This document shows positions 3,585-60,955 of a stretch of 64,000 nucleotides of DNA, one piece after another (the stretch's first letter is position 1; every line of letters begins with the position of its first letter). The stretch covers positions 124,001 through 188,000 of the forward strand of contig NZ_MPIY01000003.1 of assembly GCF_001953355.1 (NCBI RefSeq), written 5' to 3'. This stretch comes from Polynucleobacter sphagniphilus. GTDB taxonomy: Bacteria; Pseudomonadota; Gammaproteobacteria; Burkholderiales; Burkholderiaceae. Made by a program: the position numbers and the translations under genes. The notes below the pieces were generated by a model. That model saw only the letters and a program-made list of their open reading frames with translations, did not search any database and was not told where the DNA came from.

Positions 3585-4940
3585 ATGTCTGTATTAACTA
3601 TTGGTATTTTGTTTGGCCTTGTAACACTCCTGATTATGTTTTCAGGAATATCCATCGCATTTGCCTTGGGTATTGTTGCAATTATTTTTATGTACTTCTT
3701 TATGCCCGCATCCTCTTTGGATACGGTGGCGTTGAATGTATATGAGGAGATGTCTAGTATCACCTTAATGTCTATTCCGCTCTTTATCTTGAAGGGTGCG
3801 GCTATTGGACGCTCCAGGGCTGGTAAAGATTTGTACGATGCTCTCCATGTGTGGATGGGTAAGATACCTGGTGGTTTGGGTGTGGCAAACGTGTTTGCAT
3901 GTGCTTTGTTTGCGGCAATGGCCGGATCAAGTCCTGCTACTTGCTCAGCAATTGGTAGTGCTGGCATCCCGGAGATGCGTAAGCGGGGTTACTCCCCAGG
4001 TTTTGCAGCGGGGATCATTGCTGCAGGAGGCACCTTGGGTATTTTATTGCCACCATCTATCACCATGATTTTGTATTCAGTTGCATCAGAGCAATCATTG
4101 GGTAGGTTATTCCTGGCGGCGATTGGTCCAGGCGTCATGTTGGTAATCTTCTTTGCTGCATACACTATCTATCGTTATAAAAAAGAATATGCCCGTGCTT
4201 ATGAGGCTTACAACGTTGGTGCTCCATCTGCCCCCATCTTGGAGCGTCAGACATACACCATGCAACAAAAAATTAGCGCATTGCCACGCGTTTTGCCGTT
4301 CTTGATTTTGTTGATTGGTGTCATGGTGGCTCTGTATGGTGGTTATGCTACCCCTGCAGAGACAGCCGGACTGGGCGCCGTTTTTGCATTCTTGCTTATT
4401 GCCGTTATTTATCGCATGTGGCGTTTCAAAGACCTGTACCCATTGTTAGATGTCAGTATTCGTGAGTCGGCGATGTTGATGTTCATTATTGGCATGTCTT
4501 TGTTGTTTGCCAACGTCATGAGTTATCTGCACTTGAGCCAATCAGCCGCCCAAGCGATTGTTGATTTACACACTTCTCGCTGGCTTTTGCTGACTGCAGT
4601 GCTGCTGATGGTGATCTTCTTGGGCTTTTTCTTGCCTCCAGTCTCCATCATTTTGATGACGTCCCCGATTTTCTTGCCTCCGCTACGTGCTGCAGGATTT
4701 GATTTGGTTTGGTTTGGAGTGGTGATGACTATCATCATGGAGACTGGCCTGATACATCCTCCGGTAGGACTGAATATTTTTGTGATTAAAAATATTGCCC
4801 CCGACATTACTTTGAAAGAAATTATTTACGGTGTGATGCCATTTGTGGCCATCATGATTTTCTCTGTAATTCTTCTATGCATCTTCCCCGAAATTGCTAC
4901 AGGTCTATCTGACTGGGTAATGGGGCCTCCATTGGTATAA
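3585..4940 (+). CDS. TRAP transporter large permease (DctM family)
   Basis: 451 aa polytopic protein; GSSPATCSAIGSAGIPEMRKRGYSPGFAAGIIAAGGTLGILLPPSI motif. Confidence 0.92.
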   Translation: MSVLTIGILFGLVTLLIMFSGISIAFALGIVAIIFMYFFMPASSLDTVALNVYEEMSSITLMSIPLFILKGAAIGRSRAGKDLYDALHVWMGKIPGGLGVANVFACALFAAMAGSSPATCSAIGSAGIPEMRKRGYSPGFAAGIIAAGGTLGILLPPSITMILYSVASEQSLGRLFLAAIGPGVMLVIFFAAYTIYRYKKEYARAYEAYNVGAPSAPILERQTYTMQQKISALPRVLPFLILLIGVMVALYGGYATPAETAGLGAVFAFLLIAVIYRMWRFKDLYPLLDVSIRESAMLMFIIGMSLLFANVMSYLHLSQSAAQAIVDLHTSRWLLLTAVLLMVIFLGFFLPPVSIILMTSPIFLPPLRAAGFDLVWFGVVMTIIMETGLIHPPVGLNIFVIKNIAPDITLKEIIYGVMPFVAIMIFSVILLCIFPEIATGLSDWVMGPPLV

Positions 4941-7305: not shown

Positions 7306-7485
7306 GAATTCCCCGCCTTGGCCGCTAGGCCGTCATCCTGAACCCTAGGGTTCAAGGTGGAACGGCTACTCTGCTTCGGGTGCATTAAGGGTCTCAGGGA
7401 GTGAACAGCTCGAGGCTGCCACTGTAAGACATCAAAACGCTCACGCCCACAAGGTAAAGATCGTTCCTGATGCTTGCGCATCGGT
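7304..7485 (-). ncRNA. ssrS: 6S RNA
   Basis: Immediately downstream of zapA; minus-strand 3' segment CGTTCCACCTTGAACCCTAGGGTTCAGGATGACGGCCTAGCGGCC matches the 6S 3' half (E. coli ...CACCUUGAACCAAGGGUUCAAGGGUUACAGCC..GCGGC); approximate ends. Confidence 0.8.
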
Positions 7486-7845
7486 TCAAGGAACTATTGG
7501 CCTTGGCGAGCCAGGCAGGGAAAGGGTTTGCATCAAAGTATCTACCTGATCTTCTAGCGATCGAATCTCATCATGAAGACGAGAGATTTCTTCAGAGTTG
7601 AGATTGGTAGTGCTTTGGTCTTGCGAAGGTTGTGCGCTTGCTTGCAAGGTAATGAGATCGCCTGCAATTTTAAGAGCGGCCATCATGCTGGCGCGTTCAA
7701 TACTGCGATTGCCGCCATTGATAGCAAGTTTGATTTGTTCATCCACTAAAGTGCAGGCAGCGCGCAACAGCGGTTCATGCTCGGCGCTAGTGGCCAAGGT
7801 AATTTTTTGACCGGCGAGAGTTACCTCAATGCGTTGTTGGCTCAT
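7486..7845 (-). CDS. zapA: cell division protein ZapA
   Basis: MSQQRIEVTLAGQKITLATSAEHEPLLRAACTLVDEQI...; next to 6S RNA; start chosen at the internal MSQQ. Confidence 0.87.
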   Translation of the reverse strand: MSQQRIEVTLAGQKITLATSAEHEPLLRAACTLVDEQIKLAINGGNRSIERASMMAALKIAGDLITLQASAQPSQDQSTTNLNSEEISRLHDEIRSLEDQVDTLMQTLSLPGSPRPIVP

Positions 7846-10278: not shown

Positions 10279-10427
10279 ATTGAACCTTCTGCCTTCGAAT
10301 CGCCAAGCTAACTTCCCCGTAAGCTGGGCCGAACAGAATTTCACAGGCAGGGGTATAGACGTCAATTGGGCGCAGGGGCGCTTCATCGGCGTGCGAAAGT
10401 TCCCCGTCCGCAAAAATTCCACCTGTC

Positions 10428-10592
10428 TTGGCCGGTATCCGGGCTAGTAAATCTCAGAATCTGGCCTTCCCATGCAATTGACGCGCACAGTGGCTCATTC
10501 AGACTCCTGACACCCAAAATTGCAGCTTAAGGGCGCATTTACTTACCGTTGCGGGGGCAGCACACGTTTAGTGTTTCCCGTTTAACTTTATT
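10428..10592 (-). promoter_or_regulatory. cobalamin (AdoCbl) riboswitch
   Basis: Minus strand contains CTGCCCCCGCAACGGTAAGT, GCCACTGTGCGCG...TGGGAAGG and AGCCCGGATACCGGCC, the conserved B12 riboswitch blocks. Confidence 0.9.
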
Positions 10593-10712
10593 GCACTGCA
10601 ATAAAGCACCACGACCCAGCTATTATAGCTTAATGGACAGCGGGTTTTTATAACTCTTTCACAGGTTTTACCCTGAAAAAGCCTACAATGGAGCCTCTAG
10701 GATTGAGGATTC

Positions 10713-50800: not shown

Positions 50801-50838
50801 GCCGCTTTAGCTCAGTTGGTAGAGCAGTTCATTCGTAA
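50801..50838 (+). pseudogene. 5' half (nt 1-38) of host tRNA-Thr(CGU), interrupted at the end of the anticodon loop
   Basis: GCCGCTT TA GCTC AGTTGGTA GAGC A GTTCA TTCGTAA; continuation TGAAAAGG... is found only at 60918. Confidence 0.94.
50831..50838 (+). repeat. left att core direct repeat ATTCGTAA
   Basis: Identical 8-mer at 60910-60917; lies at the tRNA anticodon loop. Confidence 0.9.
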
Positions 50839-50899: not shown

Positions 50900-50929
50900 T
50901 TTGTAGCATACCGAAAAGTATGCTACATT
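50900..50929. repeat. left arm-type integrase site candidate (inverted pair)
   Basis: TTTGTAGCATACC (50900-50912, exact reverse complement of GGTATGCTACAAA) plus AGTATGCTACATT (50917-50929). Confidence 0.75.
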
Positions 50930-50958
50930 TTATACGTTACCTAACACACGTTAAAACA

Positions 50959-52440
50959 ATGCGTAAGCGTTTAATTCCTAAAGTTGCTACCCAAGCATTA
51001 GCAAACGCTAAAAGTCGTAGCGTAGTGCCTATTAAAAGCACTATAGAAGCTATTAAAGGTTTTCCCAACAAACTTGTTATCTTCAAAATCCCTGCATCAC
51101 CTTACTTTTGGGTGCGTTACTACGACAGCAAGCCAATTAAACGTAGCACCAAAACAGCAGACAAAGCACAAGCTATTAAGTTTGCTAAAGAGTTTTACGA
51201 GAGTTTGTTAGTTAATAAAAAGCTGGGAATTAGCGTTAATGCTAAGAAAACATCGTTTGTTGTCTGTGCTGAGCAAGTAATTGAGGCAGATAAGAACAAG
51301 GTTAAGCGTAAGGAATTGGCTGAAACTTACGTAAATTCACAAATAAACATCATTAGCAAACACATAATGACGTTCTTTAAGAATTACGAAATTAGCGATA
51401 TTGACTACGCATTGCTAGACAAATTTAAGACGTATTTGTACGAAAAACAGCTATCCGCAGGCACTATTAAGATTAACTTTGTTTGCTTAAAGAAGATATT
51501 TGACTACGCACAGCGTAACAACATCATTAGCGCAAGCCCATTGTTGCCAAAAGTTAAGACTGTAGATAACGCACGTGGTTACTTCACTTTAGATGAATAC
51601 AAGCATTTAAGACGTACTACGGCTAACTTAGTGGGAACAATAAGTGAAGTGATGCAGAAAGTTGGCGAAGGTGACGACGCTATTAATAAGAAGTTACGCA
51701 ATATTGTGATTACGGAAGAAATTAAGCAATTAATTCCGTTTATGTTGTACACCTTCATACGCCCAACAGATATTAAGAATATTAAGCATAAGCACATTGA
51801 CATTAGAGGCGGTGATGAAGGCGAGTATTTGTTTATGCCCATTCCGCCAAGCAAAAAGCATAGCAAGCCAATTACATCAATGCCACGTGCAACGGTGTTT
51901 TATAAAAGATTACGTGATGTACGGATTAAGGAATTAAAGCAAGCAAGTGCAGATAAAGATGCAAAGATTGATATAAGCGATGACTATTTGTTTATGCCAC
52001 AGTATGCAAACAGAAATTATGCATATGCAAAGATAGCAAGACAGTTTGATGTATTGTTGGCGCAGGCTGGATTAAAAGTTAGTATTGACGATGATGTGCG
52101 TACCTTGTATTCAATGCGTCATACAAGCCTTATGTATCGCTTAAAGTATGGTGCAGAAATCAATCCACTTAAGTTAGCTAACAATGCACGTACAAGTGTA
52201 GAAATGTTAGAGCGGTTTTACTTGGCACAGTTGGAAAGTAGTGAATACACGAAAGACTTACACGCTAAGAAGGTTGTACGGAAACGTGACAACAAGAAGG
52301 AAAGTAAGATTGCAGTTTCAAAACCTGTGCATCCATCACTATTGCAATTGACTGATAAGGTAGCGAAGATAATTGATAAGACAGGAAGTAAACGAGGAAT
52401 AACGTTTAGTGCAGATGGTGAAGGATTTGTAATAAAGTAA
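50959..52440 (+). CDS. tyrosine recombinase / site-specific integrase of the element
   Basis: Core-binding and catalytic domain; FTFIRPTDIKNIKHKHID, YSMRHTSLMYRLKYG, NNARTSVEMLERFYLA; start at MRKRLIPK more plausible than the ATG at 50920 lying inside the repeat. Confidence 0.88.
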   Translation: MRKRLIPKVATQALANAKSRSVVPIKSTIEAIKGFPNKLVIFKIPASPYFWVRYYDSKPIKRSTKTADKAQAIKFAKEFYESLLVNKKLGISVNAKKTSFVVCAEQVIEADKNKVKRKELAETYVNSQINIISKHIMTFFKNYEISDIDYALLDKFKTYLYEKQLSAGTIKINFVCLKKIFDYAQRNNIISASPLLPKVKTVDNARGYFTLDEYKHLRRTTANLVGTISEVMQKVGEGDDAINKKLRNIVITEEIKQLIPFMLYTFIRPTDIKNIKHKHIDIRGGDEGEYLFMPIPPSKKHSKPITSMPRATVFYKRLRDVRIKELKQASADKDAKIDISDDYLFMPQYANRNYAYAKIARQFDVLLAQAGLKVSIDDDVRTLYSMRHTSLMYRLKYGAEINPLKLANNARTSVEMLERFYLAQLESSEYTKDLHAKKVVRKRDNKKESKIAVSKPVHPSLLQLTDKVAKIIDKTGSKRGITFSADGEGFVIK

Positions 52441-52459: not shown

Positions 52460-52533
52460 GCCGCTTTAGTTAAGTGATATAACAGTGCACTCGTAATGCT
52501 CAGTCACAAGTTTGATTCTTGTAAGCGGCACCA
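52460..52533 (+). tRNA. element-encoded tRNA-Thr, anticodon CGU
   Basis: 74-nt cloverleaf: GCCGCTT TA GTTA AGTGATA TAAC A GTGCA CTCGTAA TGCTC AGTC ACAAG TTTGATT CTTGT AAGCGGC A CCA; acceptor 7/7, D 4/4, anticodon 4/5, T 5/5 pairs; encoded CCA. Confidence 0.92.
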
Positions 52534-52704
52534 TTAATTACCAAGCCGTACATCCTTAATCTGTTGCTGTGCCTTAGCAATCTTCTGTCTATCACGTTCA
52601 GCTTGTAGTGCTTTCGTACTAGCATCTTTTTGTCTCTTAAGTCCATCAATCCGTGCTTGCTGTGGTGTGAGTGGCTTAATTGCTGTAATTTCAAGTATCT
52701 TCAT
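52534..52704 (-). CDS. small phage/element-type protein, unknown function
   Basis: MKILEITAIKPLTPQQARIDGLKRQKDASTKALQAERDRQKIAKAQQQIKDVRLGN; 56 aa basic coiled-coil. Confidence 0.6.
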   Translation of the reverse strand: MKILEITAIKPLTPQQARIDGLKRQKDASTKALQAERDRQKIAKAQQQIKDVRLGN

Positions 52705-52920: not shown

Positions 52921-53367
52921 CTATTTTTTAAATGCCTTGCGTGTAGCATCACTAACTTCACTAATTGCATCATCAAATTCACCAGCAATTACAGCTTCTT
53001 TAAGTTTGTGTAAAGTACCAATCAAAGCAGTACCATTCATTAACTCAATTGCGTTACAGCCTTTTTTCTTGTCCAAAGTCAGTGTTTTCGCACCATACTT
53101 AACAGCCAAGTTGATCTTGCCGTCTTCCGTAATCCAAAACCACTCCTTAACACGCTTAATAGTCTCAACAGTAGTACGTTCACCTGTTTCTTTATTAACT
53201 ACTGTTTTAAGGCGTTTTGGTGCATAAGGTTGCTGATTACGCTTAGCTTCACACATATCTAACTGTTCCTGTACCTTAGCAAGTAGCTTATTGCGACGTA
53301 GCAATATTGGTGAAACAGCACTAGATTTAACGGTTGTGATTAGCTTTAAGTTTGTAACTATGCTCAT
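52921..53367 (-). CDS. conserved element/phage-type hypothetical (DUF6641-like by recollection)
   Basis: MSIVTNLKLITTVKSSAVSPILLRRNKLLAKVQEQLDMCEAKRNQQPYAPKRLKTVVN...KRVKEWFWITEDGKINLAVKYGAKTL. Confidence 0.6.
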   Translation of the reverse strand: MSIVTNLKLITTVKSSAVSPILLRRNKLLAKVQEQLDMCEAKRNQQPYAPKRLKTVVNKETGERTTVETIKRVKEWFWITEDGKINLAVKYGAKTLTLDKKKGCNAIELMNGTALIGTLHKLKEAVIAGEFDDAISEVSDATRKAFKK

Positions 53368-53514: not shown

Positions 53515-54144
53515 ATGTCTAATCACCAAGCTCTAAAGCAAGCATACGTAGCAACAATTAACCAATTAAGCCCACGCTTTACACACGCTGTAACGGTGAC
53601 GTTTAAAACACGTGCTTACGTGCTACCAAAAAGCTATGCCAAATGCACCCAAAACCCCAATAACGTATTCGTCACTGCCCAAAAGTACCAACCAGAACGC
53701 TATAAATGGACGGATAAGAAGGTTTTGGGTGATTGGAAATGGTTAAACGAAGAAGTGGCAGAAAGCACTTTAGATTATTTTTACGCTAAGTTGGCATTTA
53801 TGGCTTACGGAAAGGATACAAAACGCACATCAACAAAGGCATATTCACAGCCCACAATGCTAACAAGCATAGAAGGCTTAATTAGCGACAAACGCATACA
53901 CGCACACTTAGCAATCGGTAACTTACCCGAAAACATTGATATTCGAAACACAATAGAACGAGCTTGGTGGGCTTGTGACTTTGCACATCACAGCATCGTC
54001 ATCAAACCACTAAGCAACAGTTATGGCTGGCTTGACTACATTACAAAAGAAGCAAACGTTGGCAACGTAGAGGCTTTGCGAATACAAAGCATTAAACAAC
54101 CCCAAATCTACTTAAGTGACATTGGCGTAGAAAACAGCTTGTAA
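53515..54144 (+). CDS. putative HUH-endonuclease replication initiator (Rep-like)
   Basis: Motif I-like HAVTVTFKT, HUH motif RIHAHLAIG, downstream Tyr motif GWLDYITKEA in the expected order. Confidence 0.68.
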   Translation: MSNHQALKQAYVATINQLSPRFTHAVTVTFKTRAYVLPKSYAKCTQNPNNVFVTAQKYQPERYKWTDKKVLGDWKWLNEEVAESTLDYFYAKLAFMAYGKDTKRTSTKAYSQPTMLTSIEGLISDKRIHAHLAIGNLPENIDIRNTIERAWWACDFAHHSIVIKPLSNSYGWLDYITKEANVGNVEALRIQSIKQPQIYLSDIGVENSL

Positions 54145-54547
54145 TTAAGCGGATTTGGACAATTTGGTAACAAGCAAGCATTACTGTTATTTAATGCTTA
54201 ATGCGAAGCTTTACCTAAAATTTGCAAACAACAAAACACAACACCTCAAATTAACGCTGTAAGCAAAGAACTTAGCAAGCTGAATGCAAACGTAGCTGAT
54301 TACATAAAAAACGCTACTGTGACGCTTTAAACAAGTCAGTTAATTAATGTGGGAATTAGACAACACGATTACTAAATACAACAATGCTTAGTTTTACATA
54401 AAAATAAACATTTATTTAGAAGATGACGTAACTACTTGATTATTGGAAAGAAAATACTTAATGCAAAGAAATCAAAAAGAGGTAGGAAAAAATAACAAAA
54501 GAAAACAATATATAGCTATTGCAAAATTATATTTAGGTGTGAAAACA

Positions 54548-55123
54548 ATGGCTAAGCAAGCAAAAACATTAAATCAACAAGAGTTGCGTAGAGTTTTAGA
54601 TTACGTAGCAACAAGAAAGCACGCATTACGAAATAGGGCGCTTATAACCATCAGTATGTATTCAGGTATGCGTTGCGGAGAAATTAGTAATTTACTGTAT
54701 TCGGACGTAATTGATGCAGAAGGTAAGGTGCGTAACGAAATTAGATTACGTGCAGAAGATACTAAAACTAAAGAAGCACGTACAGTATTTGTTAGTGAGA
54801 AATTGCAGAAGGAATTACAGCAATACGCTAAAGTCTACAAACCTAAAGACGTTAATGTTAAGTTCATCTATTCACAAAAAGAAAATAGTGAAGGATTTTC
54901 GCCTAATACTCTCTGCCAGTTGTACTTCAATATCTACAAAGGTGCTGGTTTGCAAAATTGCTCAAGTCACTCAGGCAGACGTACATTTGCTACAGAGATT
55001 GCTAATAAAGGCGTAAGCATACGTGTATTGCAGAAGTTACTAGGGCATAAAAACATACAAACTACTTCAATTTACGTGGATGCTAATGATGATATGTTGA
55101 GAAAAGCCGTTAACTTAGCGTAG
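54548..55123 (+). CDS. second tyrosine recombinase, XerC/D-like
   Basis: YSGMRCGEISNL (Arg I), SSHSGRRTFATEI (HxxR), LLGHKNIQTTSIYVD (H and Tyr nucleophile); start at MAKQAK. Confidence 0.87.
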   Translation: MAKQAKTLNQQELRRVLDYVATRKHALRNRALITISMYSGMRCGEISNLLYSDVIDAEGKVRNEIRLRAEDTKTKEARTVFVSEKLQKELQQYAKVYKPKDVNVKFIYSQKENSEGFSPNTLCQLYFNIYKGAGLQNCSSHSGRRTFATEIANKGVSIRVLQKLLGHKNIQTTSIYVDANDDMLRKAVNLA

Positions 55124-55337: not shown

Positions 55338-55985
55338 TTAAATGTTTTTAGTGATTAGAAATAAGTAGGGCTTGCTGATTTCGTGTAAAAAATCTACGTA
55401 TTGCTCTACTTCCCAATTGTTACTATTTCTAACGTGTGCTGTAACGCTATCAATGTAACTATCAACTTCTTTAACATTGTAGATTGCTTGATCTTCTTCG
55501 CCGTTGTTATTATAGATACGTACAGTAAATTGATCATATACATTATGCTTTTTGAATAGTTTTGCTAGCTCACCTTCAACGCTAAATGTAACTGTAAATT
55601 CACCGCCATAACTTTCCATATCGCAACGCAATACTTGCACATTGTATTTTTCTACAGTTTCATCGCTAAATTGCTCTAAACCATAACCACCACCTTTAGC
55701 AATTGACCAACTGCCAGTTTCTTCAATCTTTTCCGTAACCGATAGCTTAACTAACGTAGCGATAAAGTCTTCAATCCTATCTACAGCATTTCTAATCTCT
55801 AAATCTTGATTATTTTCCTTTTCACGTTTTTCCCAAATTGGTGAGCGATAGGTGGCAATATTATGTGTTGCTAATTCTCTACCTAATTCAACGCCTAAGT
55901 TAAATAAATCTTCTCTATTTAAGTTCCAAGTATGTGTAAGTTGCTCTGTTAATTTCTTATCAATTTCATCAAACTTATTTGCCAT
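55338..55985 (-). CDS. hypothetical protein, 215 aa
   Basis: Long ORF in tight minus-strand operon, acidic, no recognised motif. Confidence 0.65.
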   Translation of the reverse strand: MANKFDEIDKKLTEQLTHTWNLNREDLFNLGVELGRELATHNIATYRSPIWEKREKENNQDLEIRNAVDRIEDFIATLVKLSVTEKIEETGSWSIAKGGGYGLEQFSDETVEKYNVQVLRCDMESYGGEFTVTFSVEGELAKLFKKHNVYDQFTVRIYNNNGEEDQAIYNVKEVDSYIDSVTAHVRNSNNWEVEQYVDFLHEISKPYLFLITKNI

Positions 55986-55987
55986 TT

Positions 55988-56359
55988 CTATTTCACTTTC
56001 TTAACCCTGCTCTTAGCAAGTTTGCGTAACTTGCGTGTTACGTAGTCAATCCACATATCTTCACTTGTTTGTCTTAAATCTTTAAACATAGTTACTACTA
56101 AAGCATTAGTCTTTTGTCCACCGTGTCCTGGCAACCTTAACCCCATATGTTTAATTACAGCACGTAGCCAAGCGTCCACGCTTTGATGCTCACCAGCAAT
56201 TGACATATTTGAGTGTTGATAACTGTAGCTATACATTGGATCAACTTTTGGCATTGTTTCAAAGTAAAGTTGCGTTTCATATTGCTCTTTCAATTCAGCA
56301 ATTTGCATCTGTAATTCAAACTTCTGCTCTTCAATTGTTTTGCTTGGCTTACGTGGCAT
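55988..56359 (-). CDS. hypothetical protein, 123 aa, basic
   Basis: Operon position; Lys/Arg-rich ends. Confidence 0.62.
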   Translation of the reverse strand: MPRKPSKTIEEQKFELQMQIAELKEQYETQLYFETMPKVDPMYSYSYQHSNMSIAGEHQSVDAWLRAVIKHMGLRLPGHGGQKTNALVVTMFKDLRQTSEDMWIDYVTRKLRKLAKSRVKKVK

Positions 56360-56362
56360 AGC

Positions 56363-56656
56363 TTACTTTGCTTTTGGCTTGCGTTTTTTAACTTCAGTCT
56401 GCGTAATTGCAAAATTCTTAATCCCTGCTGCCTTACCAATAGCTGTCAATATTGCAATGTCGCTAATATCTTTAGTACTTGTTTTAATCGCATTAATAGC
56501 AGAAACAATATTCTGTCCTTTAATAAGTGCCTCCAACTCTGTTGCATAAGCCTTTTGCTCTAATGCCTTGTATGCCTCTTTTGCCTTTTCTAACTTTGCC
56601 TTATAGTCATCTGCCGTCATTACCTTGCGTGTACGTGTCCCTGTAGCCATAGTCAA
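56363..56656 (-). CDS. hypothetical protein, 97 aa, Lys-rich
   Basis: Operon position; MTADDYKAKLEKAKEAYKALEQKAYATELEAL. Confidence 0.6.
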   Translation of the reverse strand: MTMATGTRTRKVMTADDYKAKLEKAKEAYKALEQKAYATELEALIKGQNIVSAINAIKTSTKDISDIAILTAIGKAAGIKNFAITQTEVKKRKPKAK

Positions 56657-56779: not shown

Positions 56780-59593
56780 ATGGCAGATATAACAATTAAC
56801 GAAGTCCGCAGACGCTTACAGCTATTTGCGAAAGAGCACGAGAGCGACAGGGAAGAGAAACAGTACGCACAGCAATTTATGCGTGATTTCTACGCTTGCT
56901 TTGGATTAAGCAAGAGTTCTGCGTCAATGTTCGAAAAGAAGGTTATTAAGTTTGGCAATGCACGGGGTTATATAGATAGCTTTATACCTGGCGTGTTATT
57001 GGTTGAACAAAAGACAACTGGCGAGGATTTGTATAAAGCATATGAGCAGGCAACTGACTATGCAATGGCAATTACTAACGAGTTTGAAAAGCCGCAGTAC
57101 ATATTAATTAGCGATTTTCAAACATTTCACCTATATAACCTACACAGCTTAGATAAAGAACCTCTCGTATGTAGCTTAAGTGAGATTAGCAAACGAGCTG
57201 ATTGGTTTATGTTTTTGGTTGATAAGCGAGTTATTGCTTACAGCGAGGAATTACCAATTAACCGTAAAGCTGTAGAGCAGATTGCCAAGTTACACGATGC
57301 TTTACTTAAAGCTAACTACACAGGTAGGGATTTAGAGAGCTTTTTAACTAGATTGCTGTTTTGCTTGTTTGCAGACGATACAGGGATATTTGGTGAGGAT
57401 GGGCAGTTTAAGAAGTTGGTAGCTAAGACTAAGGAAGATGGTAGCGACTTAGGAATGGCTATTGCTATGCTGTTTCAAGTGCTTAATACAGCACACGACA
57501 AACGGCAAACAAACTTAGATGAAGCACTTAAGGCTTTTGAATATGTAAATGGTGGATTATTTGCAGAGCAAATATCTATCCCTAGCTTTGACTTTGATTT
57601 AAGAACGATATTAGTTAAGTGTTCGGAATTAGATTGGAGTGGAATTTCGCCAGCTATTTTTGGTGCAATGTTTCAAAGCGTATTAGAAGCTGGTGCTACT
57701 GACACAGCACATCGCAAAGAGAGTAGACGAGAGTTAGGCGCACACTATACAAGCGAACGCAACATACTTAAAGTAATACAGCCATTATTTTTAGATGAGT
57801 TGCATAAGGAATTCGAGCAAGCAATTACTAAGCCTAAATTACAGGCACTTTACGATAAGTTGCATACACTTAAGTTCTTTGATCCAGCTTGCGGTTGCGG
57901 TAACTTCTTAGTTATTGCTTACAGAGAATTAAGACGTATTGAGAATGACGTTATTGCTAAGCTGTACTTTAAAGGTGATCAAGGGGGCTTATTAGACGTT
58001 AAAGAGTATTGCAAAGTAAGCATTGAACAGTTTTATGGAATTGAGATTGATGAAGCGGCTGTACATATTGCACGTGTAGCAATGTACATAACAGATCATC
58101 AACTTAACTTAGAAAGCGGTAATAGGTTTGGTGAGACTCGTGCAACCGTTCCGTTAATAGCAACTCCGCATATACATTGTGGTAACGCATTACGTATGGA
58201 TTGGAATAGCGTAGTAAAGGCTGAGGATTGTAGTTACGTGTTCGGTAATCCCCCGTTTATCGGTGCAGCATTAAAAAATACAGAACAACAAAGTGAGATG
58301 GATAGTGTTTTTTATAATATTGATGGTGCTGGTAAATTAGATTATGTTTGTGCTTGGTATGTTAAGGCTACTTATTACACTGATATAAACAGTGATATTA
58401 AGTGTGCATTTGTATCTACAAATAGCATTGCACAAGGCGAGCAACCTGCTATTTTGTGGAAAGTATTATTTAAACACGGCATTTCAATTAATTTTGCACA
58501 TAGAACATTTAGGTGGAGCAACGAAGGTAGAGGAGTTGCAGCTGTTCATTGCGTAATTATCGGCTTTAGTAAACATAGTGGTGGAGCTAAGAAATTATTT
58601 ACATATGAAAATTTAAAGGCAGATCCTGTTCTTGTAATAGCAAATCAAATTAACCCATATCTTGTTGATGCCGCTAATGTATTGATTGAAAATAGATCTA
58701 ATGTCCTTTGTCCAAACCTGCCGGACTTAATTAGAGGTAGCATCCCTTACGATGATGGGAACTTATTGTTATCTGAAGATGAAAAGAACGCAATATTAAG
58801 TGCTGATAGTAGCTTAGAAAAATACATTAAGAAATATGGTGGAGCTAAGGAAATGTTAAGCAATGAATGGCGATATTGCTTTTGGCTTAAGGATGCAACA
58901 CCAACAGAAATTGTTAGCAATAAAGTAATAAAAAATAGAGTTGAAGCTGTAAGGGATTTTCGTGAAAAGAGTAAGACAAGTTCTGTGCATTCTAAAAAGG
59001 ACATTCCTGCTTTATTTGGCGATATTCGGCAACCTAGTGCGGATTATTTGCTTATTCCGCGGCATTCATCCGAAAACAGAAAATTTATTCCAATTGCTTA
59101 CGTTAGTAAGGAAGTAATTTGTGCTGATAGTGCATATGCTTTACCGAATGCTTCTCTCTATCATTTCGGTATATTAAGTAGTTCCTTGCACAATGCTTGG
59201 ATGAGGACTGTTTGCGGTAGATTGAAGAGTGACTATAGATATTCTGGTGGTATTGTTTATAACAATTTCGTTTGGGTTAGTAATTTAGATGAGGTATTAC
59301 GAGCAAATATAGAGAAATGTTCACAGCAAGTGTTGGACATTAGGGCTAATTTAAAGGACACAACTGTAGGTGATGCTTACAAGGTGATAGCAATGCCAAT
59401 TTCTCTAATAAAAGCACACAAAGACTTAGACAAAGCAGTAGATGAAGCATACGGCTATAAAGGTGGTGATGATGATGCAAGCAGAGTTGCGTTCTTGTTT
59501 AAGCGTTATGAAGAGTTAACTAGCTTGTTACCTGCTACTGCAGTTAAGAAGAAGCGTGTAAAGAAAAATGATGATGGTGAATTGCTAATTTAA
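56780..59593 (+). CDS. MmeI-like (Type IIL/IIG) single-chain restriction-modification enzyme
   Basis: N-terminal nuclease-like YIDSFIPGVLLVEQKTTGEDL; SAM motif FFDPACGCGNFLVIAYRELRRIE; N6-adenine MTase motif NPPFIGA; 937 aa. Confidence 0.85.
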   Translation: MADITINEVRRRLQLFAKEHESDREEKQYAQQFMRDFYACFGLSKSSASMFEKKVIKFGNARGYIDSFIPGVLLVEQKTTGEDLYKAYEQATDYAMAITNEFEKPQYILISDFQTFHLYNLHSLDKEPLVCSLSEISKRADWFMFLVDKRVIAYSEELPINRKAVEQIAKLHDALLKANYTGRDLESFLTRLLFCLFADDTGIFGEDGQFKKLVAKTKEDGSDLGMAIAMLFQVLNTAHDKRQTNLDEALKAFEYVNGGLFAEQISIPSFDFDLRTILVKCSELDWSGISPAIFGAMFQSVLEAGATDTAHRKESRRELGAHYTSERNILKVIQPLFLDELHKEFEQAITKPKLQALYDKLHTLKFFDPACGCGNFLVIAYRELRRIENDVIAKLYFKGDQGGLLDVKEYCKVSIEQFYGIEIDEAAVHIARVAMYITDHQLNLESGNRFGETRATVPLIATPHIHCGNALRMDWNSVVKAEDCSYVFGNPPFIGAALKNTEQQSEMDSVFYNIDGAGKLDYVCAWYVKATYYTDINSDIKCAFVSTNSIAQGEQPAILWKVLFKHGISINFAHRTFRWSNEGRGVAAVHCVIIGFSKHSGGAKKLFTYENLKADPVLVIANQINPYLVDAANVLIENRSNVLCPNLPDLIRGSIPYDDGNLLLSEDEKNAILSADSSLEKYIKKYGGAKEMLSNEWRYCFWLKDATPTEIVSNKVIKNRVEAVRDFREKSKTSSVHSKKDIPALFGDIRQPSADYLLIPRHSSENRKFIPIAYVSKEVICADSAYALPNASLYHFGILSSSLHNAWMRTVCGRLKSDYRYSGGIVYNNFVWVSNLDEVLRANIEKCSQQVLDIRANLKDTTVGDAYKVIAMPISLIKAHKDLDKAVDEAYGYKGGDDDASRVAFLFKRYEELTSLLPATAVKKKRVKKNDDGELLI

Positions 59594-59602
59594 GGTTAAG
59601 TT

Positions 59603-60505
59603 ATGAAAATTTATACACTACACAATACTAAGTTAGATGAAGTGGATGAAAAGCAATTTAAGTTAGAACGTGAGATACAGCAAGTATTTGAAGATAACTT
59701 AGAAACTGTAATGGGGTTAACGCTTGTACGTAGTGAGTTTACGATTAAAAATAAGCGTATTGATACGTTAGCATACGATAAACAGGCTAAGGCATTCATT
59801 ATTATCGAATATAAGCGTGACAAGAATGTTAGTGTTGTAGATCAAGGCTTTACTTATTTGAGCTTAATGTTGGAGAACAAGGCTGACTTTATTGTTGAGT
59901 ACAACGAACAGCTTAAGCAAAACTTACAGCGTACAGATATAGATTGGACGCAGACAAGAGTAGCTTTTGTTTCTCCAAGTTTTACCGAAAATCAAATATT
60001 AGCTACAAACTTTAAAGATATTGCTATTGAGTTGTGGGAAGTTAAGCGTTACGAGAACAACACAATTGTTATTAACGAGGTTAAGAAAACAAGAAGTGCA
60101 GAAAGCATTAAGCCAATTACACAGCAGAATAAAGAGTTAAAACGTGTAACGGATGAGATTGTTGTTTATACAGAAGATCAGCATACAAGCTATGCAGGTG
60201 AGGAAATGGCTGAGTTATATGACAAGTTTAAGAATGCAACACTTAACTTAGCTGATGGCATTGAAATTAAGCCGCAAAACGATTACATAGCATTTAAGAA
60301 GGATAGAAACATTGTTTGCTACGAATTACAAAAGAAGCAGATTAAAGTTTTTATAGGTGCTAAGTGGGGTGCTATTGAAGATAGCAAGGGTTTGGCTAGG
60401 GATGTTTCGCAAGTTGGACACTTTGGTACTGGCGATTACCAAATACAAGTAGACAGTGATAAAGATTTGGAATACATAATGAGCTTAGTTAAGCAGGTTT
60501 TATAG
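59603..60505 (+). CDS. predicted PD-(D/E)XK nuclease with DUF5655-like C-terminus
   Basis: RIDTLAYDKQAKAFIIIEYKRDKN nuclease motif; C-terminal ...NIVCYELQKKQIKVFIGAKWG...GHFGTGDYQIQV. Confidence 0.7.
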   Translation: MKIYTLHNTKLDEVDEKQFKLEREIQQVFEDNLETVMGLTLVRSEFTIKNKRIDTLAYDKQAKAFIIIEYKRDKNVSVVDQGFTYLSLMLENKADFIVEYNEQLKQNLQRTDIDWTQTRVAFVSPSFTENQILATNFKDIAIELWEVKRYENNTIVINEVKKTRSAESIKPITQQNKELKRVTDEIVVYTEDQHTSYAGEEMAELYDKFKNATLNLADGIEIKPQNDYIAFKKDRNIVCYELQKKQIKVFIGAKWGAIEDSKGLARDVSQVGHFGTGDYQIQVDSDKDLEYIMSLVKQVL

Positions 60506-60838: not shown

Positions 60839-60864
60839 GGTATGCTACAAAGGTATGCTACAAA
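60839..60864 (+). repeat. right arm-type integrase site candidate (tandem pair)
   Basis: GGTATGCTACAAA at 60839-60851 and again at 60852-60864. Confidence 0.8.
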
Positions 60865-60909: not shown

Positions 60910-60917
60910 ATTCGTAA
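60910..60917 (+). repeat. right att core direct repeat ATTCGTAA
   Basis: Identical to 50831-50838; directly precedes the tRNA 3' half. Confidence 0.9.
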
Positions 60918-60955
60918 TGAAAAGGTCGCCAGTTCGATTCCGGCAAGCGGCACCA
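60918..60955 (+). pseudogene. 3' half (nt 39-76) of host tRNA-Thr(CGU)
   Basis: TGAAA AGGTC GCCAG TTCGATT CCGGC AAGCGGC A CCA; pairs with the 5' half at 50801 (acceptor 7/7). Confidence 0.94.

Follow-up and report, generated by a model that had tools for sequence, protein, structure and literature searches.

The window analysed here, the whole stretch of 64,000 nucleotides from positions 124,001 to 188,000 of contig NZ_MPIY01000003.1 of the freshwater bacterium Polynucleobacter sphagniphilus, contains a 10.1-kb integrated element (G+C content 36%, vs 47% in the flank). The element splits the host gene for transfer RNA (tRNA) Thr(CGT) in the anticodon loop, and carries a complete tRNA-Thr gene with the same anticodon directly downstream of its integrase. 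The features that define this arrangement are as follows, numbered from the first letter of the window, with attL and attR denoting the left and right attachment sites.

50801–50838, plus strand: displaced 5' part of the host tRNA-Thr(CGT) gene, tRNA positions 1–38, identical to the intact gene of other species and ending in the attL core
50831–50838, plus strand: attL core ATTCGTAA, in the anticodon loop; 8 bp, with no longer sequence shared between the two ends
50902–50927, no strand: putative left arm-type integrase sites, an inverted pair of TGTAGCATACC
50920–52440, plus strand: tyrosine integrase of 506 residues, non-reconstituting (PHROG integrase, 5e-22; Pfam Phage_int_SAM_5)
52460–52533, plus strand: candidate replacement tRNA-Thr(CGT), 74 nt with encoded CCA, starting 19 nt past the integrase stop codon
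52534–52827, minus strand: gene for a 97-residue protein, convergent on the integrase and tRNA, the first gene of a backbone shared with related elements
60839–60862, no strand: putative right arm-type integrase sites, two direct copies
60910–60955, plus strand: attR core (60910–60917) and displaced 3' part of the host tRNA-Thr(CGT) gene, tRNA positions 31–76

The two cores lie 10,079 bp apart. Rejoining the flanks at ATTCGTAA yields a 76-mer that is unaltered in all 30 intact loci inspected from other species of the genus and present at 100% identity in 54 of the 186 genomes of the genus, which bears out the proposal of the first-pass annotation that the element splits a host gene of the isoacceptor it carries. 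The bases that follow position 50838, CAACTTTG, are not tRNA, and a search for a tRNA at either junction (attL, attR) found none rebuilt. The complete tRNA lies inside the element, with attL 1.6 kb and attR 8.4 kb away. Within the 64 kb, TGTAGCATACC is confined to the two element ends, with two copies per side, and it also adjoins attL of a second element, which occupies the same tRNA gene in another species (G140, L094); these copies are probably arm-type integrase sites. A half gene in a further genome (G122, L095) was considered as another insertion and rejected, as it looks like a contig break and an intact copy lies on another contig. We note that this contig end (G122:C6:101055-101100) breaks exactly at ATTCGTAA, as might arise if only part of the population carried an element.

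The internal gene is the sole tRNA detected by ARAGORN in the window, a tRNA-Thr with anticodon CGT at 52460–52533 (plus strand), and matches Rfam RF00005 with 61.6 bits (E 6e-11; cut-off 29 bits), so the earlier description of a complete 74-nt tRNA-Thr with encoded CCA stands. There are 39 RF00005 matches in the host genome, 38 of them full-length with 50–79 bits, and the element tRNA scores within this range. A second CGT tRNA was looked for across the same genome and none was found, leaving the element copy as the only one; tRNA-Thr(TGT) and tRNA-Thr(GGT) are also encoded. In a structure-based alignment with the host gene, 58 of 76 positions are equal and 18 differ. As the first-pass annotation had read, the acceptor stem (7/7 pairs), A73 and the anticodon agree, and U8, A9, A37, A38 and CCA are likewise unchanged. 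Its statement that the D arm, anticodon stem, variable loop and T arm are almost fully re-sequenced is correct in that the differences cluster in the stems of the D, anticodon and T arms, and somewhat too strong given the 58 identical positions.

The altered positions are mostly accommodated by the structure. The D stem (4/4) and the T stem (5/5) contain standard pairs throughout, though several are altered on both strands, and position 27–43 is a G-C pair in the element tRNA vs a mismatch in the host gene. By reading of the sequence, U8-A14, G15-C48, G18-U55 and U54-A58 are retained, and the elbow pair G19-C56 of the host gene is replaced by A19-U56. Because the changes mostly keep the stems paired, including the exchange at the elbow, the element tRNA looks selected rather than decaying, and the compensated changes are what selection for a functional tRNA would leave. 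Free-energy folding was dropped as evidence (z = -1.0), since the minimum-energy fold is not a cloverleaf; the case for the tRNA thus rests on ARAGORN, the covariance-model match and the way in which the changes compensate each other. The nearest kin within the genus is only the host gene family itself (about 76%), and an exact-pattern search of viral contigs returned no copy. A search for CmoB, with regard to wobble reading, gave partial methyltransferase matches only.

The integrase retains the catalytic R, K, RHT and Y residues in an alignment with its relatives. No match was found among 50,697 phage records or in a scan of viral contigs, matches in plasmids are weak, and at E 1e-40 across 300 genomes of the family the integrase occurs in the home genus only. 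Beyond the genus, the nearest integrase (46% identity) lies beside an intact tRNA-Lys. Relatives within the genus (30–38% identity) occupy anticodon loops, those of Lys(TTT), Met and Arg(TCT), and restore the tRNA that they interrupt. Six do so with a carried 3' half, at Lys(TTT) (L146, L150) and at Met (L148, L152, L154, L175). One element (L144:3363-7878) instead carries the 5' half of tRNA-Arg(TCT) together with its own TATAAT-like promoter and rebuilds the target at its far end, a carried 5' half being rarer than the usual 3' half. At Thr(TGT), the element L158 also has a complete tRNA at its far end, with the break within the acceptor stem. This comparison covers the relatives with a readable anticodon-loop target, the others showing no tRNA or one half in the stretch read. 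In the set of integrase relatives read, only the window element fails to restore its target, and it is also the only one in which a complete tRNA follows the integrase. A degraded relative of the integrase lies elsewhere in the same genome (L113, G000 C17:279678-280917).

A whole-element search of the genus identified an element in another species (G185) that is 93–96% identical over the backbone and is sited at guaA. The homology starts at 52534, which is the first base after the tRNA and the last base of the 97-residue gene (93% DNA identity). The G185 element has neither the window integrase nor the tRNA; the integrase that it carries beside guaA is another tyrosine integrase, and the tRNA-Thr(CGT) gene of its genome is intact. 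In five guaA-site relatives and one Lys-site relative, 0–19 nt separate the end of the integrase from the convergent 97-residue gene, vs 93 nt in the window element, i.e., 19 nt plus the tRNA. Because the G185 homology resumes right after the tRNA, next to a different integrase, integrase and tRNA must have been exchanged as one module; this boundary, together with the 93-nt gap, places the tRNA in the integration module and not in the cargo. A family of elements sited at the guaA 3' end (L202, L203, L204, L206, L207) has backbone genes in common with the window element, and another integrase.

The remaining genes of the element are listed below.

52921–53367, minus strand: DUF6641 protein (Pfam PF20346, 9e-10)
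53515–54144, plus strand: protein of 209 residues, no family match, kept in the G185 element
54443–55123, plus strand: second tyrosine recombinase, 226 residues, catalytic domain only (Pfam Phage_integrase, 5e-29)
55338–56656, minus strand: three small genes, no family match
56780–59593, plus strand: MmeI-type (type IIG) restriction-methylation enzyme, 937 residues (Pfam MmeI domains; PADLOC REase_MTase_IIG, 1094 bits)
59603–60505, plus strand: PDC-S18 candidate defence protein, 300 residues (PADLOC PDC-S18, 5e-131)

No phage structural, packaging or lysis genes were recognised with Pfam and PHROG among the 10 element proteins. The second recombinase is kept in guaA-site and tRNA-site relatives, many related elements having it alongside differing integrases. 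Elsewhere in the window are a cobalamin riboswitch (10413–10628, minus strand) and a 6S RNA (7306–7524, minus strand).

The reading that we favour, and hold to be quite probable, is that the element breaks the host tRNA-Thr(CGT) gene and supplies a substitute from an integrase-plus-tRNA module, the disrupt-and-replace strategy that the first-pass annotation had put forward and that the relatives support well, namely through the rebuilding kin of the integrase and the module boundary defined by G185. The tyrosine integrase would insert the element at the anticodon loop of the host gene by recombination across the 8-bp core of the element's own attachment site (attP). With no tRNA half in attP, the host tRNA would be destroyed on integration. 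The complete tRNA directly downstream of the integrase would then read the same ACG codon and keep the threonine acceptor identity of the host, and the integrase-plus-tRNA module could take the place of the integrase module in related elements. The sequences show the split site, its core, the lack of a rebuilt tRNA, an intact tRNA sequence with compensated changes and the edge of the module; we infer that the element tRNA is expressed, charged by threonyl-tRNA synthetase and of benefit to the host.

Several observations weigh against this reading. A CGT-isoacceptor pattern was matched in 92 of the 186 genomes of the genus, and the complete genome G023 has no CGT tRNA among 30 loci read; by our inference its remaining seven matches are of Leu or Ser length, except one that fits Pro by length and score. 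In two complete genomes the tRNA-Thr(CGT) gene decays in place, downstream of DUF1854: the G105 copy (L098:4328-4403, minus strand) has anticodon CTT and C37, with loss of the purine at 37, and the G080 copy (L111, about 4154–4211, minus strand) is a truncated remnant without its 5' end. As judged from its absence or decay in other species, tRNA-Thr(CGT) is not essential in the genus. The element tRNA contains a T-T mismatch at anticodon-stem pair 28–42. A promoter scan upstream of it gave nothing clear, and it may thus rely on readthrough from the integrase or from a host operon. Finally, there is a single complete example at this site, the G140 element being cut off where its contig ends inside the integrase gene; a search for a further piece of that element found none.

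Where it is present, tRNA-Thr(CGT) is under strong selection, because the gene is identical in 54 genomes, and the gain from the element tRNA is likely an avoided fitness cost rather than survival. The dispensability of the target isoacceptor in the genus weakens the idea, raised in the first-pass annotation, that loss of the tRNA favours retention of the element: besides the pattern count, G023 and the two cases of decay in place, Thr(TGT) and Thr(GGT) are kept. Arrays of Ser(ACT)-Gly(CCC)-Thr(CGT) at L100, L101 and L106 have a different version of Thr(CGT) in G018 and G019, and are possibly mobile.

The divergence of the element tRNA may itself have a function. It has ACTCGTAA in place of the core ATTCGTAA, with a mismatch in the 8 bp and six core bases (TCGTAA) kept in the anticodon loop, and shares only 6 bp with attP vs 8 bp for the host gene. 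A replacement identical to the bacterial attachment site (attB) would be a target of its own integrase. We suggest, tentatively and with somewhat more doubt than belief, that a portable integrase and replacement-tRNA cassette moves between backbones of small defence-carrying elements, with an anticodon arm rewritten at core position 32 and on both stem strands such that it may still be a working Thr(CGT) and no longer the target of its own integrase.

Other explanations of the internal tRNA fit less of the evidence. It might be a functionless passenger kept by chance, the leftover of an earlier attachment site or of element accretion; the second recombinase hints at a composite history, and an isoacceptor dispensable in the genus could be carried without a role. 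Against this, the anticodon and acceptor stem fit the very gene that was destroyed, the changes are compensated (that at 19–56 included), the tRNA lies exactly within the swapped integrase module, and natural decay of the gene takes a different course, having removed the anticodon and purine 37 in G105 and the 5' end in G080. We regard a passenger as improbable. Rather less probable still is a tRNA that serves the element itself, through translation help or resistance to host tRNA-cutting enzymes, with the match to the insertion site being secondary. A rewritten anticodon stem is what escape from an anticodon nuclease would be expected to leave, and phage tRNAs are known to act in such escape (see the discussion in PMC10865867); however, the guaA-site sister element has the same backbone without the tRNA, and ACG is not enriched, with 14.7% of Thr codons in the element vs 14.3% in the host, for which reason a codon-usage helper role was rejected. 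The six core bases retained in the anticodon loop would also suit an internal attB, a landing pad for further elements or for dimer formation, yet the mismatch in the core and the rewritten flanking arms make the gene less like attB, and we give this explanation very little weight.

Under the disrupt-and-replace reading, this form of integration would extend from phages to a small non-phage element with restriction and candidate defence genes, and one integrase family would have arrived at three solutions for its target, i.e., a 3' half, a 5' half with promoter, and a whole substitute tRNA. Why an isoacceptor that many relatives live without should be repaid is a puzzle, as is whether a replacement tRNA must be rewritten to escape its own integrase. 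Elements of this type would go unnoticed by any island finder whose search is for a restored tRNA together with a fragment.

Among known systems, ordinary tRNA-targeting islands (Islander, PMC4383910) resemble the window element in having a tyrosine integrase at the anticodon-loop subsite, and the closest relatives of the window integrase belong there; unlike the window element, which rebuilds its target at neither junction, they carry a rebuilding tRNA half. Tycheposons, named in the first-pass annotation as the closest known idea, likewise combine a tyrosine recombinase with a border tRNA gene, and in Methylophilaceae that tRNA is described as sitting at the end of the element (PMC10872708). 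This assignment was rejected, as the complete tRNA of the window element is internal and lies within a split gene. In Lo5R7ANS-like prophages of Sinorhizobium meliloti, the central part of the tRNA-Leu(UAG) gene is disrupted and the prophage carries a tRNA of similar function, whose identity reaches 80.6% with the host gene and is 97.6% with a tRNA of another bacterial species (PMC11476347). These are alphaproteobacterial prophages with a close tRNA source, whereas for the window tRNA no close source was found in the genus. As far as its citation in PMC10865867 goes, the Lj965 prophage of Lactobacillus johnsonii does not rebuild the junction tRNA and has a cognate tRNA in the prophage.

The closest system is tRNA-dependent lysogeny, proven and confirmed by deletion for actinobacteriophages (Fionnbharth, LeBron, Gaia and others) by Guerrero-Bustamante and Hatfull (mBio 2024, PMC10865867), in which the integrase is of the tyrosine family, attB overlaps a host tRNA, the core is 8–17 bp, no tRNA is present at attL or attR, and the phage encodes a tRNA with the same anticodon. 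The overlap of attP with attB, about 10 bp, is too short there to restore a functional tRNA, and the host tRNA that is broken is essential, so that survival requires the carried one. For phage Gaia, integration without reconstruction of the tRNA was sequenced, and the same study suspects integration in tandem, with the carried tRNA as the target (PMC10865867). The gene order of Gaia (integrase, tRNA downstream on the same strand, then convergent genes) is that of the window element; simple comparison of the core with Gaia's own tRNA did not locate its attachment site. Likewise, the window element has a tyrosine integrase, an attB that overlaps a host tRNA with an 8-bp core and nothing rebuilt, and its own tRNA-Thr(CGT) at 52460–52533. 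The split within the loop combined with an internal non-homologous tRNA, which had been taken as distinct, is already present in this system. The window element differs in being no temperate phage, with no phage genes recognised; in disrupting a tRNA that is not essential in the genus; in its betaproteobacterial host and the position of its tRNA, 19 nt from the integrase stop codon; and in an integrase and tRNA that were demonstrably swapped as a unit against another integrase. No report of the same strategy in a non-phage element was found, the coverage of the literature being incomplete. In sum, the strategy is not new, having the logic of tRNA-dependent lysogeny; what differs is its setting, a small non-phage element in a betaproteobacterial host with a dispensable isoacceptor as its target.
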